A stretch of DNA of 33,064 nucleotides from a virus. Under the pieces are notes generated by a model that saw only the letters and a list, made by a program, of their open reading frames with translations, was not told where the DNA came from and made no database searches. Within the stretch, counting starts at the first letter, position 1. Every line of letters starts with the position of its first letter. This document shows, piece after piece, positions 2,389 to 21,600 of the stretch. Location of the stretch: IMG/VR virus record IMGVR_UViG_3300044712_000673, positions 1 through 33,064 of that record; one strand, given 5' to 3'. The position numbers were made by a program, and so were the translations under genes.

Positions 2389-4934
2389 TATGCGTACCTC
2401 AAAAATAAGTTCTCACCATAGTGGTCAAGCGGCAGACTTGCTTTTGAAGAGTCAATGGCAATAGTGAGTAGTCTGCTCGTTGCGCTCCCACTGATTTCCG
2501 CCACGACGGGAACAAGAAACGCAGTAGTGCTAATGGGCAGAAAGCCCCCCGTACTCCCAAATCCTCCGAGAGTCTCGGGAACGGTGCTTGTGAATTCATT
2601 CCCAGGACGGTATGTATGGAAAGACACACCGTCATCGAATGACAAGAACAAAAGCCCAGTGTTATTCGATGGGTATATTCCGAGAGTAGATGAACCGATT
2701 CGGGCTAAGCCAATGTTCGTGTTGAAGGCTGCGAAGGCCACACGCCCCGGAACCTTTAATACAGTCCAGTTAATGCCGTCTGTTGTTTTGAAAATGAGTT
2801 GCTCACCGGAGATTTGCCCACTCCCTACATAAAAAAGCGCGCCGGTAGTAACTTGTATTCCCCTGTTTCTATTGGCTACACTGGTGATCGATGCTCCAAG
2901 CGAGGCAGGTAGCGTGCGTAGTGTCCATGAGGCACCGTTTGTAGAAGTCCAGTACCTAGTAGTCGAATTTTCAACAACTACAAACAACCCCGCTGTCTGC
3001 ATCCAGCGAACTACCTTCGCGCCACTACTTGCACTTCCAAGTGTCCCGCCAGCGGAGAACGAAGTTCCATTGCTGCTTGTGTACGTGGTTCCATCATCCG
3101 CGCACACCATCACCACTACAGTTCCCGCGTCATTCGAGGCAATAGAGTTCCATGTCTTACTCGCTAGCGTGGTGGATGTCGTCCACGTGGCCCCGTCCGA
3201 AGAATAAGCATGAGTTGTGTTAGCTGAGTAGTTGGATAAAGCCACGAACTTATTAACGCTACCACCCATCCAGACAACATCAGACCATGCCTTACTAGAT
3301 GAGCCGATAGTTGCCGTTGCCCATGTAGCCCCGCTATCTGCCGACTTATCGCAAGAATCAACTGCGTCCGTCATTAAGACAATCTTCCCGGCCCCGTTAG
3401 AGGCACCCGCCCCCCAACCACCGGCAGTAGCTGGAGTCCGCATTGTGGCAGTCATGCCATCAGGTAATGCGGTCAGATTGGCATAACTGGCGCGGGCCAC
3501 ATTAGAGCCACTGCATCGGATGTATTTACCTGAGTCCGGCGTGACACCGATGGCGAAAGATGCCACCGCGCCAATGGGCACATCCGCGCCACCCCCACCA
3601 AGAGCAGCAATAGCTGCGGCGACTCCAGCGGGGGTTACTGCGCGGGTCGTATCGGCACCAGCCTCAGCCTCCGCGACTGTCGCCAGTTCGACCACGCCGG
3701 TCGCCGTTTCTGAGGCCGCTTGCTTGATGTTGCCGAAGGCGGTCGCCGCGTTGCCCACGTCTGAGAGATTGTTTGCGGCAAGCATGTCGCCGCTACCCGC
3801 CCCATCAGCGCCCTTGTCGCCCGCCCTTGCAAAGCCGAGATAACCGACATCGGCCGCCGACCACGCGCCATTGCTCGCGACATGAGTCACCGCAAGCTGC
3901 AACCATGTTCCGTTGTCGGTGACGCCGGTTATCGTGAAGGTCGCAAACGTCGCCGGGGTGCCCGACTTCTTGAGCGTCAGCGTGCCCTTTACTGTGTTGG
4001 TCGAAGCGGCCCAGGTCGCCACAAAATCCGACACGTCCGGGTTGCCGGAGTCGGCCGAATTCGCAGAGAGCGCGAGGGCCGTCACCGAGGCCACGGTCGC
4101 ATTGTTCAGGCGGAAGTCGCCCGCGCCAGGATCGGCCATCGAGGTACTGCTGTCGAAGGTGAATTTCGGTGCAATCGCGGAGGCCGCGTTGCTGGCGGCA
4201 GTGGCAGAGGTTCCGGCATTGGTTTCCGATGTCGCGGCATTGCCCGCCGACGTGCTGGCCGCGCTGGCGCTGGCCGCCGCGTTGGTCGCGCTGGTCGATG
4301 CGCTGGAGGCCGAGCCGCTGGCGCTCGATGCACTGGTGGATGCGGCCGAGGCCGATGCTGCCGCTGCGACGGCGCTGGCTGCGGCGTAGGTTTCGGCCGT
4401 CTCCGCGTTTGTCTCCGCCGTCTCCGCATGCGTTTCCGCCAACTCGGCCGCCGCCTGCGCTGTCTGTGCCGCTGTCTTCGCCGTCTCAACATCGGAGACG
4501 TTGATGAATAACTCCATCCTGCCGGCGGCGAGATCCGTCGCAAACACGCCGGACGTGTGCGACGTGACCACGATGTAAAGGTTCTTGGTCGTCGAATTGC
4601 GGATGATGTCGAGGGATTGGTAGTCCGTCGCTGTCACCCAGTCGCCGCGCCAGTTGCCGAAGCTGTAGATGACGCCGGTTTCATGGTTCTCGGTAAATGC
4701 GCCCTCAATCTCGGCGATCACCGGGGCATCGATGTAGATCGGCCCATTGCTGCGGCCGTCGGCGTCGAGTGTTACCGGGTTGGGGTGTTCTACCGCGCCC
4801 GTTGCGGCGGTATAGAGGGTGGCGTGCGTTGCTGTCTTGGCACCATTGAGCACAGTCCAGAAATCAACGACTGCGCCGGCATACATGGGGTTCGCTAGGG
4901 CGAACTCCTTAATTGCTTTGCGATCTGTGGCCAT
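2388..4934 (-). CDS. Tail fibre protein
   Basis: 848 residues, ATG at 4934. Several zones are visible. Residues 1-155 form a podovirus-type N-terminal attachment domain (GAVEHPNPVTLDADGR, then NWRGDWVTATDYQSLDII). Residues 155-260 are a low-complexity Ala/Ser/Thr shaft with repeated AETAET and SASSAS units, probably a trimeric helical stalk. Residues around 400-450 carry a phage fibre repeat (ASETATGVVELATVAEAEAG...DTTRAVTPAGV). The C-terminal 380 residues contain repeated DGATW, SNGTSF, TNGASW and DGINW turns typical of beta-propeller or BNR/Asp-box domains and probably bind the receptor. By eye the DNA for this last part (2400-3500) is less GC-rich than the rest, suggesting exchange of the receptor-binding end. 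A chaperone gene follows directly. Confidence 0.88.
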   Translation of the reverse strand: MATDRKAIKEFALANPMYAGAVVDFWTVLNGAKTATHATLYTAATGAVEHPNPVTLDADGRSNGPIYIDAPVIAEIEGAFTENHETGVIYSFGNWRGDWVTATDYQSLDIIRNSTTKNLYIVVTSHTSGVFATDLAAGRMELFINVSDVETAKTAAQTAQAAAELAETHAETAETNAETAETYAAASAVAAAASASAASTSASSASGSASSASTSATNAAASASAASTSAGNAATSETNAGTSATAASNAASAIAPKFTFDSSTSMADPGAGDFRLNNATVASVTALALSANSADSGNPDVSDFVATWAASTNTVKGTLTLKKSGTPATFATFTITGVTDNGTWLQLAVTHVASNGAWSAADVGYLGFARAGDKGADGAGSGDMLAANNLSDVGNAATAFGNIKQAASETATGVVELATVAEAEAGADTTRAVTPAGVAAAIAALGGGGADVPIGAVASFAIGVTPDSGKYIRCSGSNVARASYANLTALPDGMTATMRTPATAGGWGAGASNGAGKIVLMTDAVDSCDKSADSGATWATATIGSSSKAWSDVVWMGGSVNKFVALSNYSANTTHAYSSDGATWTTSTTLASKTWNSIASNDAGTVVVMVCADDGTTYTSSNGTSFSAGGTLGSASSGAKVVRWMQTAGLFVVVENSTTRYWTSTNGASWTLRTLPASLGASITSVANRNRGIQVTTGALFYVGSGQISGEQLIFKTTDGINWTVLKVPGRVAFAAFNTNIGLARIGSSTLGIYPSNNTGLLFLSFDDGVSFHTYRPGNEFTSTVPETLGGFGSTGGFLPISTTAFLVPVVAEISGSATSRLLTIAIDSSKASLPLDHYGENLFLRYA

Positions 4935-18324: not shown

Positions 18325-19052
18325 CAGTGCGCCCCAAGCGATTGGGACAACTTCGCCAGCCCCTTGCCGGTAACGAGTACCTGCTCAACCACCTTGTTGG
18401 TGCCGTCATCGCGCAGGATTGTTGTGACCTTGTGCGTCAGGTAGCCCGCCTGGATCTTGTCTTGGTAGGCGACATTCCCGCCGCCGCCGGGTCGCCGGTA
18501 GATCCATCGCTTCTCGCGCAGGAAGTCGAAGAGTTTTTTCGGGGGAACCTGCAACGCCTTGGCCGCGACGGTCGGATTCATCGCGCCATCGGCGTCAGCG
18601 ATCCGGTCGAGGGCTACTGCCTTCGGTTCCAGTTCGACAACCTTGCTTTCGAGTGCCAGCACCTTTTCGGTGTAGGTCAGCAGCAGTCCGCGCATGGCGG
18701 CCGGGTCGCTGAGTACCTGCATGGGGTCGATTTGGCGCGCTTCCTTGGCGTGCTTTTCACACTCAATGAAGTAGCGCCGAACTTGCCGCCCCTTCTCGTT
18801 GTTTTCCACCATTGCTAGTTCTTTGGCGGTTTCGATGGTCAGGTGGTAGTCGATGACTGTGGCGCGACCGTTGATAAATTTATCAACCGTGAAATCTTCA
18901 CCATCGACAAGGCCGTATTTCTCAATTCGGCCCTTGATCCAGTTGGCAAATTCCTGCTTGCTCTCGATAAACTCCCAAAGGGAGCGGGCGTTGCAGGTTT
19001 GTACGGTGGCACCCGATATTTCACGGGCCTCGATCTTGATAAGTTCGTTCAT
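18324..19052 (-). CDS. Antirepressor, AntA plus KilAC-type C-domain
   Basis: 242 residues. ATG at 19052 is chosen over one seven codons earlier because GGAGGG stands ahead of it and because it makes an ATGA overlap with the RuvC-like stop. Residues about 13-95 form an AntA/AntB-type domain (CNARSLWEFIESKQEFANWI, FINGRATVIDYHLTIETAKE). The C-terminal part (residues about 120-240) looks like a phage antirepressor KilAC/ANT domain (DGAMNPTVAAKALQVPPKKL, FLREKRWIYRRPGG, AGYLTHKVTTILRDDG). Such proteins inactivate phage repressors or act as DNA-binding regulators. It lies in the leftward operon under the switch. Confidence 0.78.
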   Translation of the reverse strand: MNELIKIEAREISGATVQTCNARSLWEFIESKQEFANWIKGRIEKYGLVDGEDFTVDKFINGRATVIDYHLTIETAKELAMVENNEKGRQVRRYFIECEKHAKEARQIDPMQVLSDPAAMRGLLLTYTEKVLALESKVVELEPKAVALDRIADADGAMNPTVAAKALQVPPKKLFDFLREKRWIYRRPGGGGNVAYQDKIQAGYLTHKVTTILRDDGTNKVVEQVLVTGKGLAKLSQSLGAH

Positions 19053-19537
19053 GCGCGTTCCCTCCATGCCCAATAACCAAGAAGCGCGGCCTCACTGCGA
19101 TTGTGGTCGCGCCGCCTCTGAAAATGAATGCTTTGCTCCGGGAAAAGCTGGATCGCCATGGTTCGGCTTATTTCCTTGTCCGAACTGAGCCCCATCGCCT
19201 TTTTCCACTTGGCTGGCGATATGAGCTCGGTCGGGATTCCTTTTGCAGCGAGGACGCCCCGGATCGCACCGAAGGAATCGCCCATGCTGAACATTGAGGA
19301 CACCCCCTGCCCCGGCATGGCGCTGGTCCGCTCAAGCACGGCCAGGACGTATTCGCCGGGGTACTCGGAAATGATGTTTTTCAGGAGCGCGGCAAGGCCG
19401 GCGGCATCGATCAGGTTTGAAACCTTCGCCCCGGAACCGGATGGCATGATTGGGAGATCCCAAACGCCGGCCAGCCGGCCGCATTTGATTGAGGCGATTG
19501 CCCCGGTAAGACCAGGGTCAATCCCGAGAACTAGCAT
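19049..19537 (-). CDS. RuvC-like Holliday junction resolvase
   Basis: 162 residues from ATG at 19537 (MLVLGIDPGLTGAIASI). The RNase H-fold acidic residues are seen as Asp7 in GIDPGLTG, Glu69 in LAVLERTSAMPGQG, and Asp144/Glu149 in RRRDHNRSEAALLG, the expected RuvC set. FSMGDSFGAIRGVLAAKGIP matches the helical core. Phage versions cut branched DNA intermediates before packaging. It lies between an excisionase-like regulator and the antirepressor, overlapping both by a few bases. A 25-residue upstream reading overlaps the regulator gene and is not used. Confidence 0.85.
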   Translation of the reverse strand: MLVLGIDPGLTGAIASIKCGRLAGVWDLPIMPSGSGAKVSNLIDAAGLAALLKNIISEYPGEYVLAVLERTSAMPGQGVSSMFSMGDSFGAIRGVLAAKGIPTELISPAKWKKAMGLSSDKEISRTMAIQLFPEQSIHFQRRRDHNRSEAALLGYWAWRERA

Positions 19538-19724: not shown

Positions 19725-19934
19725 TCACCGGGAACTCGCGGAACTATCCGAACCGTTGCCGCCGAAGATCCGTTGCATCACACTGAATTCATACTCTTTG
19801 TGGGCAAGGTGGTCTTGAATGAGATTGGCGACGTACTCAGAGGCAGAAACCCCGGTCAGTTCCCCGAGTTGGCGGACTTTCGCCTCGACGTCGGCGGGGA
19901 TATGGACGTTGATGTTGCCGTTTTTCTTTTCCAT
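19725..19934 (-). CDS. Ribbon-helix-helix regulator, 69 aa
   Basis: 69 residues, ATG at 19934. The sequence NINVHIPADVEAKVRQLGEL, followed by TGVSASEYVANLIQDHLAHK, is a clear ribbon-helix-helix fold like CopG/Arc: beta strand for DNA contact and two helices with the G-V-S-x-S-E-Y turn. It follows the cro-like gene with one base between them. It probably regulates phage operons as a dimer. In-frame codons further upstream overlap the cro-like gene and are ignored. Confidence 0.75.
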   Translation of the reverse strand: MEKKNGNINVHIPADVEAKVRQLGELTGVSASEYVANLIQDHLAHKEYEFSVMQRIFGGNGSDSSASSR

Positions 19935-19935
19935 T

Positions 19936-20124
19936 TCAGGCGGCCTCTTTCCGCTTCGCCTGGGTGGAAGCCTTGAGCTTCCCCTTGCTGAGAACCTGAA
20001 TCTGGTATTGGCGGAGCTCGGGAACGATGTCGCCCCAGTGATGGGTTGCCGACCGATCAATGCCGAGTTTTTCGGCAAGAGCTTCCCGGCTTCCAAAAAA
20101 ATCGATGGCGTCTTGTGTCTTCAT
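19936..20124 (-). CDS. cro: Cro-like repressor
   Basis: 62 residues, ATG at 20124. MKTQDAIDFFGSREALAEKL, followed by GIDRSATHHWGDIVPELRQY, matches P22 Cro-type proteins (single helix-turn-helix with GID/RSA-x-xxWG and a P..R.Y ending), followed by a basic tail with KGKLKASTQAKRKE. It is the first gene of the leftward operon opposite cI. A promoter with -10 box at 20136-20131 would start transcription at or next to the A of the ATG, and no Shine-Dalgarno is seen, so the mRNA is probably leaderless. Confidence 0.8.
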   Translation of the reverse strand: MKTQDAIDFFGSREALAEKLGIDRSATHHWGDIVPELRQYQIQVLSKGKLKASTQAKRKEAA

Positions 20125-20130
20125 GCCACG

Positions 20131-20159
20131 ATTATGAGCACACTCACAATTAAACGCAA
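20131..20159 (-). promoter_or_regulatory. Leftward early promoter (pR equivalent)
   Basis: On the minus strand the -35 box TTGCGT (20159-20154) and -10 box CATAAT (20136-20131) are separated by 17 bases. An operator fills the spacer. Predicted start is near 20124, the first base of the cro-like ATG. Confidence 0.72.
20135..20146. promoter_or_regulatory. Repressor operator, left pair, site 1
   Basis: TGAGCACACTCA, within a 20-base near-palindrome with half-site ATTRTGAG, lies between the -35 and -10 boxes of the leftward promoter. Repressor or Cro binding here would block the polymerase. Confidence 0.7.
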
Positions 20160-20169
20160 GAGCTTTTTG

Positions 20170-20181
20170 TGATCGCACTCA
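20170..20181. promoter_or_regulatory. Repressor operator, left pair, site 2
   Basis: TGATCGCACTCA differs from the core TGAG-N4-CTCA at one position. Its centre is 35 bases from site 1. It covers the -35 region of the predicted cI promoter, so it could mediate cI activation or autorepression. Confidence 0.62.
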
Positions 20182-20194
20182 TATCGAATGCGAG

Positions 20195-20200
20195 TAGATT
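20195..20200 (+). promoter_or_regulatory. Predicted cI promoter -10 box (pRM equivalent)
   Basis: TAGATT lies six bases before the cI ATG, the same -10 sequence and spacing as lambda pRM. No good -35 box is present at the proper distance (ATCGCA at 20172-20177), consistent with an activator-dependent promoter. The message would be leaderless; no Shine-Dalgarno is seen before 20207. Confidence 0.5.
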
Positions 20201-20206
20201 GAAACC

Positions 20207-20893
20207 ATGAGTGAGTTAAACGAACGACTTAAAAAAGCCAGGGAAGCCTTGGGTATTAGTAAATCCGAGCTGGCTAGGCGTGCGGGGTGTGATCCGTCAG
20301 CGATCAATCACCTTGAGAGCGGGAAAACAAAGTCGCTTTCCGGCAAGCTGGCCGTCAACATTCCTCGGGTTCTCGGGATTAGTGCTGTCTGGTTATCGGA
20401 GGGCAAAGGTGAAATGAAATCACCATCACCCATGCGCTTCCGTGCCGTTCAGACATCCGAGACGGCAATCGATGTTCCGGTGATGAACGCCATTGGGAGC
20501 ATGGGAATCGGGAAGCCCCTCCCCGAGCATGACGCTGTTGTGGATCATGTTCGGGTGGCGCGGCAGTGGGTGTCTCTCATGTTCCCCTCGATCTCAAACG
20601 CCAAGAACCTTGCCGTGATCGCTGCGTGCGGGGATTCGATGCGCCCCACCTTTGATGATGGCGACATGCTGCTGGTGGATACGGGCGTCACTGAGATAAA
20701 GATTGATGCCGTCTATGTCCTCGCCCTCGGTGACGAGCTCTACATCAAGAGGCTACAGCGCCGGCCGGACGGGGCTTTCCTCATGATCTCGGACAATCGG
20801 CAATATGACCCCTACCCCATTTCCGACATCGGGAAACAGGAGCTCCGCGTCCTTGGCCGCGTGCTCTGGGCGTGGAATGGGAGGAAGCTTTGA
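20207..20893 (+). CDS. cI: CI-like phage repressor, S24 family
   Basis: 228 residues. An N-terminal XRE helix-turn-helix (residues 5-65: LNERLKKAREALGISKSELA, DPSAINHLESGK) is joined to a C-terminal LexA/S24 peptidase-like domain with the catalytic Ser144 in CGDSMRPTFDDGDML and Lys181 in LYIKRLQRRPDG. The usual cleavage dipeptide Ala-Gly or Cys-Gly is not obvious; the expected region reads NAIGSMGIG (residues 94-102). It should bind the four TGAG-N4-CTCA operators and hold lysogeny. It is divergent from cro, and a membrane protein gene is coupled to its stop. Confidence 0.88.
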   Translation: MSELNERLKKAREALGISKSELARRAGCDPSAINHLESGKTKSLSGKLAVNIPRVLGISAVWLSEGKGEMKSPSPMRFRAVQTSETAIDVPVMNAIGSMGIGKPLPEHDAVVDHVRVARQWVSLMFPSISNAKNLAVIAACGDSMRPTFDDGDMLLVDTGVTEIKIDAVYVLALGDELYIKRLQRRPDGAFLMISDNRQYDPYPISDIGKQELRVLGRVLWAWNGRKL

Positions 20894-21213
20894 CTGCCAT
20901 TCACAAGAAAGCCGCAAAGGCGCTATCCGCTACATGGGACGCTATTATTGGCGTGCTACTTTTCCCGCTGCTTGTGGTAGTGCCAATAATCACTTTTCTG
21001 TGGATGATGTGCATCGCGCTGTATTCCGCTGCGCGGCATGTAATAGCTAGCCGCCTGAGTGACACGTTCACCACTGTGGCAGTTTTTCTCGGGATGATCC
21101 TGGGTGGCGCACTTTTCATTCTCGTTATCGGCGGAGCATTCTGGCTACTCGCCGCACTACTTGGTTTGAATATCTCAACAGAGTGCATCCCAACTAGATA
21201 TATCGACTGCTGA
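20890..21213 (+). CDS. Membrane protein co-transcribed with cI
   Basis: 107 residues if TTG at 20890 is used; it overlaps the cI stop (TTGA) and has GGAGG six bases upstream. A GTG at 20872 is possible but has no ribosome site. Two long hydrophobic stretches, residues about 14-42 (IIGVLLFPLLVVVPIITFLWMM) and about 60-95 (TVAVFLGMILGGALFILVIG and GAFWLLAALLGL), predict three or four membrane passes. The gene ends just before a terminator, so it belongs to the lysogenic transcript, like rexAB in lambda. A superinfection exclusion or lysogenic conversion role is inferred; the family is not recognised. Confidence 0.6.
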   Translation: MTAIHKKAAKALSATWDAIIGVLLFPLLVVVPIITFLWMMCIALYSAARHVIASRLSDTFTTVAVFLGMILGGALFILVIGGAFWLLAALLGLNISTECIPTRYIDC

Positions 21214-21234
21214 CCCAATCTCGCTCTGCGACAG

Positions 21235-21257
21235 GCCCGCTTGCGCGGGCTTTTTTT
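21235..21257 (+). terminator. Terminator of the cI transcript
   Basis: GCCCGC (21235-21240) pairs with GCGGGC (21245-21250) around TTGC, followed by seven T. It ends the cI/membrane-protein unit before the second operator region. Confidence 0.88.
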
Positions 21258-21269
21258 CGTCATTAAATA

Positions 21270-21281
21270 TGAGCGCACTCA
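21270..21281. promoter_or_regulatory. Repressor operator, right pair, site 2
   Basis: TGAGCGCACTCA lies upstream of the rightward early promoter. Its centre is 34 bases from the other right operator, almost the same spacing as in the left pair. Confidence 0.68.
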
Positions 21282-21290
21282 AAATATCTC

Positions 21291-21319
21291 TTGCTTTTTA
21301 TTGTGAGCATACTCATAAT
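21291..21319 (+). promoter_or_regulatory. Rightward early promoter (pL equivalent)
   Basis: TTGCTT (21291-21296) and CATAAT (21314-21319) with a 17-base spacer. The spacer reads TTTATTGTGAGCATACT, closely matching that of the leftward promoter. Predicted start is about 21326. Confidence 0.75.
21304..21315. promoter_or_regulatory. Repressor operator, right pair, site 1
   Basis: TGAGCATACTCA is placed between the -35 and -10 boxes of the rightward promoter, in the same register as left site 1. The flanks ATTG and TAAT extend the symmetry to about 20 bases. Confidence 0.7.
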
Positions 21320-21325
21320 TACACA

Positions 21326-21600
21326 CATCGCAGCCAAGCAAGCCCACCAGCAAGTGAAGCAGCGATGCAGCAACCCCGCCCCGGCGCGCTTGTCGCGCCA
21401 GTTAAGAGCTAAAGGGCGACCCAGGAGCGCAGTACCGGCCAGCAAATGGCGTGAGTCCTCAGAACATGGGCGAGGACGGGGAGAAGCACCGATTTTGCAG
21501 GGCGTGGGAGCGAAGGCCCACGAATTCCAGCCTACTCGGTTGGGAATTTGACGGCTGGCACCGGCCGTTCTTCGCGGGGCGAACCTTCGGGGGAAGGATT
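21326..21600 (+). other. Long structured leader of the early operon
   Basis: About 275 bases separate the predicted start from the first likely gene. Several hairpins are possible: GGCGCG/CGCGCC at 21383-21399, CGTGGG/CCCACG at 21503-21522, ACGGC/GCCGT at 21551-21568, TTCGC/GCGAA at 21571-21583 and CCTTC/GAAGG at 21584-21597. The last would hide the Shine-Dalgarno of the next gene. A 15-codon reading at 21376-21423 is too short to claim. No clear boxA was found. This could hold an antitermination site or translation control. Confidence 0.4.

Follow-up and report, generated by a model that had tools for sequence, protein, structure and literature searches.

The four copies of the palindrome TGAG-N4-CTCA on both sides of the cI gene are very probably the operators at which CI, and also Cro, control a lambda-type lysis-lysogeny switch, two per side; of the explanations weighed for the whole arrangement, this one is the best. 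The window analyzed here is the whole length of the virus record IMGVR_UViG_3300044712_000673, 33,064 bases, which is, judged from its gene layout, an uncharacterised temperate tailed phage. Sequence comparison indicates that the switch layout is real and conserved across distantly related phages, but of a known general type.

The HTH-containing cI and the cro gene are divergent, with operators between them, and a matching operator set lies at the other early promoter past the cI operon, as expected of lambdoid immunity. The annotated features are as follows.

18327-19073, minus strand: antirepressor (AntA + KilAC; PF08346, PF03374; phrog_63), farther along the pR operon
19728-19934, minus strand: small gene downstream of cro (phrog_21380), ribbon-helix-helix-like by eye
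19936-20124, minus strand: cro, 62 aa, P22_Cro family (PF14549), without a Shine-Dalgarno sequence, predicted leaderless
20131-20159, minus strand: pR, leftward early promoter (TTGCGT 20154-20159, 17 bp, CATAAT 20131-20136), with 6 nt from the -10 box to the cro ATG
20135-20146: oR1, perfect TGAGCACACTCA, within the pR spacer, PWM rank 1 of the record (28.2 bits)
20170-20181: oR2, weak TGATCGCACTCA, over the predicted pRM -35 region, PWM rank 4 (19.3 bits)
20195-20200, plus strand: predicted -10 box TAGATT of the putative promoter pRM, 6 nt ahead of the cI ATG, with an equivalent in the relatives L043, L156 and L342
20207-20893, plus strand: cI repressor, 228 aa, HTH_3 (PF01381) and Peptidase S24 (PF00717); phrog_4
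20890-21213, plus strand: small ORF of 107 aa, hydrophobic (membrane-like) by its translation, with a TTG start and a strong Shine-Dalgarno sequence, overlapping the cI stop
21233-21257, plus strand: intrinsic terminator of the cI operon, immediately ahead of oL
21270-21281: oL2, perfect TGAGCGCACTCA, upstream of the pL -35 box (27.1 bits)
21291-21319, plus strand: pL, rightward early promoter (TTGCTT 21291-21296, 17 bp, CATAAT 21314-21319)
21304-21315: oL1, perfect TGAGCATACTCA, within the pL spacer (26.7 bits)

Past cro, the leftward order runs from the small gene through an xis-like HTH_17 protein, the antirepressor and a replication initiator to the terminase/portal/capsid block, while RecT- and RecE-type genes, SSB and dUTPase lie rightward beyond pL. 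No integrase was identified among the scanned proteins of the record. The Cro protein scored 71.0 bits against PF14549 (curated cut-off 30.2), which places it in the P22 Cro family. The 107-aa ORF returned neither a family match nor a phage homologue; it holds a rex-like position in the cI operon and is a candidate lysogenic-conversion or exclusion gene. After pL, about 280 bases (21320-21600) contain no convincing gene and include the GC-rich hairpin GGCGCGCTTGTCGCGCC; an antitermination or leader element may lie in this stretch, and Rfam gave no match there or at the switch.

The preliminary description of this DNA reported four TGAG-N4-CTCA copies, one with a single mismatch and two at each early promoter, and a motif count over the whole record bears this out. 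Exactly three perfect copies occur in the 33,064 bases (20135, 21270 and 21304), the one-mismatch copy being TGATCGCACTCA at 20170. Many equal matches elsewhere in the genome would have spoken against their role as operators, and perfect sites were found only at the switch. The spacings given earlier (34-35 bases within pairs, about 1.1 kb between them) were measured as 35 start to start for the left pair, 34 for the right and ~1.13 kb between the pairs. The extended half-site ATTRTGAG, described as common to the sites, holds for the two promoter-proximal copies; in the other two, TGAG/CTCA is retained but the flanks differ in part. A PWM trained on relatives only placed exactly these four sites at the top of the record, the next unrelated match reaching 13.4 bits. 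No third operator rose above background on either side by the matrix, leaving two per side 34-35 bp apart; a candidate for a further oR operator, at the pRM -10 box (~20191), has three mismatches, no better than background, and was rejected.

The promoters take the form proposed for them, with a TTGCKT -35 box, a CATAAT -10 box, 17 bases between and an operator in the spacer at both pR and pL, and the pR layout also occurs in three relatives. Both -35 boxes match the sigma-70 consensus at only 3/6 positions, a weakness that makes a generic promoter scan miss pR and pL. Their assignment is supported because relatives carry TTGACT, TTGACA or TTGATA at the corresponding position, with TTGACT and TTGACA at the relatives' pL. 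The pR -10 CATAAT precedes the cro ATG by 6-8 nt in four of four lineages, and in each of them a plausible pRM -10 box (TAGATT, TATGAT, TATGAT and TACGAT) is separated from the cI start codon by exactly 6 nt. No Shine-Dalgarno match was found at cI or cro, although one is present at most other tested genes of the record. Given such closely placed -10 boxes and this absence, both mRNAs are predicted to start at or within 1-2 bases of the start codon, and cI and cro thus both look leaderless in all four lineages. The cI and cro mRNAs of phage PY54 are leaderless by RACE, and its cro -10 box is likewise CATAAT (PMC4488713).

Relatives were sought among virus contigs with the extended operator, Cro relatives and a CI-HTH profile. 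The search of related phages for the extended operator that the preliminary description had proposed, complemented by Cro relatives, recovered the two-plus-two arrangement in L043 and in L074/L075/L078, the latter corresponding to the near-identical group L156/L161/L180. The complete layout is therefore present in two independent virus lineages; a further one, L342, found via the CI-HTH profile, shows the cro/cI half, its contig stopping short of the oL region. A scan of 2.9 million virus contigs for the operator, CATAAT and a leaderless cro returned these lineages only, and DNA-level relatives were absent among phage records. A scan for the exact promoter in one genome per species, which required TTGCKT and was blind to TTGACT/TTGACA, gave 22 matches; because none had a paired operator, no cultured host was found. 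An attempt to add members through TGAG-N4-CTCA with a nearby ATGAARAC yielded, among the matches listed, chance occurrences only.

The geometry of the switch recurs closely. With leave-one-genome-out matrices for each genome scored, the four switch sites rank first in the record, L043 and L156, and the cI-proximal oR site is the fourth and weakest in all three. Its excess over background is clear in the record (19.3 versus 13.4 bits), modest in L156 (10.8 versus 8.6) and marginal in L043 (6.7 versus 5.7). Between the oR sites the spacing is 35 bp in the record and 34 bp in each of L043, L156 and L342, and between the oL sites it is 34, 34 and 33 bp in the three lineages with a visible oL. In all four lineages a distance of 31.5 bp separates the centre of oR2 from the cI start, and the site covers the predicted pRM -35 box. 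From oL to oR the distance ranges between 0.85 and 1.7 kb. In the relatives' full records, perfect sites are concentrated at the switch, with one extra in that of L043. Together with the gene identities and the matrix ranking, this recurrence in independent lineages supports the earlier suggestion of lambda oL/oR logic built on another operator with two sites per side.

Some further features of the relatives were noted. A hairpin with a T-run just before oL in L043 resembles the terminator at 21233-21257 of the record. All four lineages have a small gene next after cro, of comparable size and placement (record 19728-19934; L043 7007-7204; L156 9271-9468; L342, minus strand); it is similar in appearance among L043, L156 and L342 and more divergent in the record. 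Near 10440 in L156, cI is shortened after ~75 codons by a reading-frame difference, the longer form being present in L161 and L180. In L043 and L156 a putative extension of the cI frame begins within oR1; the record has this frame closed, and the extension was judged accidental.

The recognition helices of both proteins differ from those of the nearest relatives at a corresponding position. In the TGAG lineages the Cro helix reads HHW (record and L043), LHW (L156) or YHW (L342), and the CI helix SAINH (record, L156 and L342) or GAINK (L043); in the TTAAG-operator phages (P22 and many related), Cro helices end in SQW, TQW or TMW and those of CI read AISQ, AVTQ or AITQ. The residue before the conserved Cro tryptophan is His in all four TGAG lineages and Met, Gln or Lys in TTAAG-type and other relatives. 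The P22-type core TAAG-N4-CTTA does not describe the sites of the record, all strong ones being TGAG-N4-CTCA, and His (or Lys) in place of the Gln or Met of the TTAAG relatives appears fitting for the A-to-G change in the operator. As this position has changed in CI and Cro alongside the half-site, we infer that both proteins read the sites.

The remainder of CI is less constant. The record's CI has an S24 domain with the Ser-Lys dyad (PF00717 match; GDSM and IKRLQ motifs aligned), whereas CI lacks S24 in three of the four lineages, where it is a short HTH protein.

L043, 7472-7870: short CI without S24
L161, ~2880-3290, minus strand: short CI without S24
L342, 2998-3411: short CI without S24

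The operators thus travel with the HTH and with Cro, not with the C-terminal half of the repressor. At residues ~95-105, the place of the usual autocleavage site (Ala-Gly or Cys-Gly), the record's CI reads AIGSMGIG where P22 c2 has SAGQW, without a clear Ala-Gly. This, with an antirepressor in the pR operon, makes antirepressor-driven induction possible, and induction may not proceed by RecA-type cleavage.

In the mechanism that we propose, CI dimers on oR1 and oL1 in the lysogen would occupy the -35/-10 spacers and block pR and pL. Repression of pR would silence cro, the small DNA-binding gene, the xis-like gene, the antirepressor and the replication and late genes, and repression of pL the RecT/RecE-type recombination genes. 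Since oR2 overlies the predicted pRM -35 box, its occupation should turn cI off, and since it is weak, this should happen only at high CI; oR2 would be filled last, helped by the oL pair. In each of the three lineages with a visible oL2, this site has full strength, although no divergent promoter is present there, which suggests a helper role: it would take a second dimer, so that CI tetramers could link the oL and oR pairs over 1.1 kb. The geometry (1.13 kb) permits such looping between oL and oR by a CI octamer, and by analogy with oL3/oR3 of lambda a 1.1 kb loop would bring a dimer to oR2. Looping is the least certain step because the CI proteins of the other lineages are short and lack S24. 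Cro would read the same sites via its matching recognition helix and, at oR2, shut pRM and commit the phage to lysis. Both regulators would be translated from leaderless mRNAs.

Several observations stand against the proposed CI/Cro switch: the usual tetramerising and looping domain, S24, is missing from CI in three of four lineages, the record's -35 boxes keep only 3/6 consensus positions, the centre spacing of 33-35 bp is unlike that of lambda, and the oR1 centre lies near -66 relative to the cI start, not where lambda CI activates pRM. The missing S24, shared by the relatives that have the same operators, also favours a local switch in which each site is bound by CI and Cro on its own, without communication between oL and oR, and in which oR2 acts on pRM and oL2 obstructs the alpha subunits of RNA polymerase upstream of pL. 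The variable oL-oR distance (0.85-1.7 kb) and the centre of oL2 near -50 of pL, the location of an UP element, point the same way. We consider such a switch possible but rather doubtful, as the record's own CI carries S24 and the full strength of oL2 in all three visible lineages is more than an auxiliary role seems to need. It competes with the looping part only and leaves the identity of the sites as CI/Cro operators as it is. That the sites serve only Cro, or the small second DNA-binding protein, while CI uses other sequences, would agree with their hugging the cro start and with the strongly different preferences of Cro and CI in PY54 and phiKO2 (PMC4488713, PMC4997575). It is nevertheless quite unlikely: the four sites are the sole shared palindrome found at the two promoters, the change of operator goes with parallel changes in the recognition helices of both CI and Cro, and the operators are inherited with the CI HTH while the other CI domain is exchanged.

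All four sites also match the host cAMP-CRP consensus TGTGA-N6-TCACA at 8-9 of 10 positions, which raises the question of whether they are CRP or Vfr sites instead of phage operators, or double as such. Six of the ten matches follow automatically from TGA..TCA, however, and ~10 matches of at least eight positions are expected by chance in the record. All 18 of 18 half-sites have the inner G/C, a feature that CRP has no need of, while the outer TG..CA of a CRP/Vfr site is not conserved: at the position of the outer G, 8 of the 18 have G, 7 have A and 3 have T. We regard replacement of the phage operators by CRP sites as very improbable, and think as little of the chance that CRP (or Vfr) reads this operator family besides CI and Cro; if it did, the carbon state of the host would be in direct competition with the two phage proteins at pR, pL and pRM. 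Chance palindromes in an AT-rich promoter stretch can be practically dismissed. The specified core is only eight bases long, but first-order Markov simulations produced a mean of 0.57 perfect sites per simulated record against the three observed, and 3 of 300 runs (1%) contained a close pair, defined as two sites 20-40 bp apart with no more than one mismatch over both, whereas the real record has two such pairs. Clustering, spacing and conservation in other lineages are far above expectation, and the comparisons already refute a chance origin.

The CI/Cro switch proposed here provides a compact operator family that can be recognized by sequence alone in uncultured phages, with four independent examples. 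The recurring design, two operators on each side and a weak but conserved site at pRM, is a natural comparison for the purpose of lambda's third operators. As the operators stay with the HTH and Cro while the dimerising/cleavage domain is exchanged, the inducing signal may change with immunity specificity unchanged.

The switch is like that of lambda in its divergent cI/cro, in the position of oL past the cI operon with an extra ORF between them (rex in lambda), in repeated operators at pL and pR and in a weak operator on pRM. The lambda cI transcript is leaderless, with a -10 box TAGATT, 6 nt and the ATG as in the record, and in lambda the weak oR3, helped by oL3, shuts cI off at high CI. Lambda has three operators per side ~20-24 bp apart, whereas the record has two, spaced 33-35 bp; the record further differs in placing an operator inside the promoter spacer, in its P22-type Cro, in its half-site and in a cro that is leaderless too. 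Switches of the 933W, TP901-1 and 16-3 types were set aside, partly since their repressor families or operators differ. By sequence, the nearest known operators are the P22-type ones (TTAAG-N4-CTTAA), not those of lambda. P22 c2/cro and its Pseudomonas-type relatives share the Cro family PF14549 (36-57% identity) and a palindrome whose two half-sites have an inner G/C and flank a centre of 4 bp; in the Pseudomonas-type relatives, the pR spacer likewise holds one operator and pRM is covered by others. In contrast, the P22 type has a TAAG core, three oR sites (two adjacent in the Pseudomonas type) and Gln in the CI helix, where the TGAG lineages have a TGAG core and His or Lys. Among Pseudomonas-type phages with a related Cro (L070-L137), three TTAAG-type oR sites were seen upstream of cro, a neighbouring pair that covers pRM and a single site within the pR spacer, a layout that is intermediate between that of P22 and that of the record. 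Residues of the Cro recognition helix reportedly covary with operator half-sites, as described by Hall, Lefevre and Cordes in 2005, a study cited in PMC4997575; beside those correlations, the pairing found here is of HHW/LHW/YHW helices with TGAG half-sites. PY54 resembles the record in its Cro homologue (38% identity), leaderless cI and cro and CATAAT cro -10 box (PMC4488713). The immB operators of PY54, phiKO2 and N15 are unlike those of the record in being TA-N10-TA, with oL controlling repA, and in number: three oR and two oL in phiKO2/N15 and one oL in PY54, against two plus two here. In phiKO2, Cro binds oR3 only; phiKO2 and N15 also place operators at a distant second promoter, where a two-site oL is workable (PMC4997575). 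Because phiKO2/N15 have two oL sites as well, two operators per side exclude lambda's own subtype, not the lambdoid kind.
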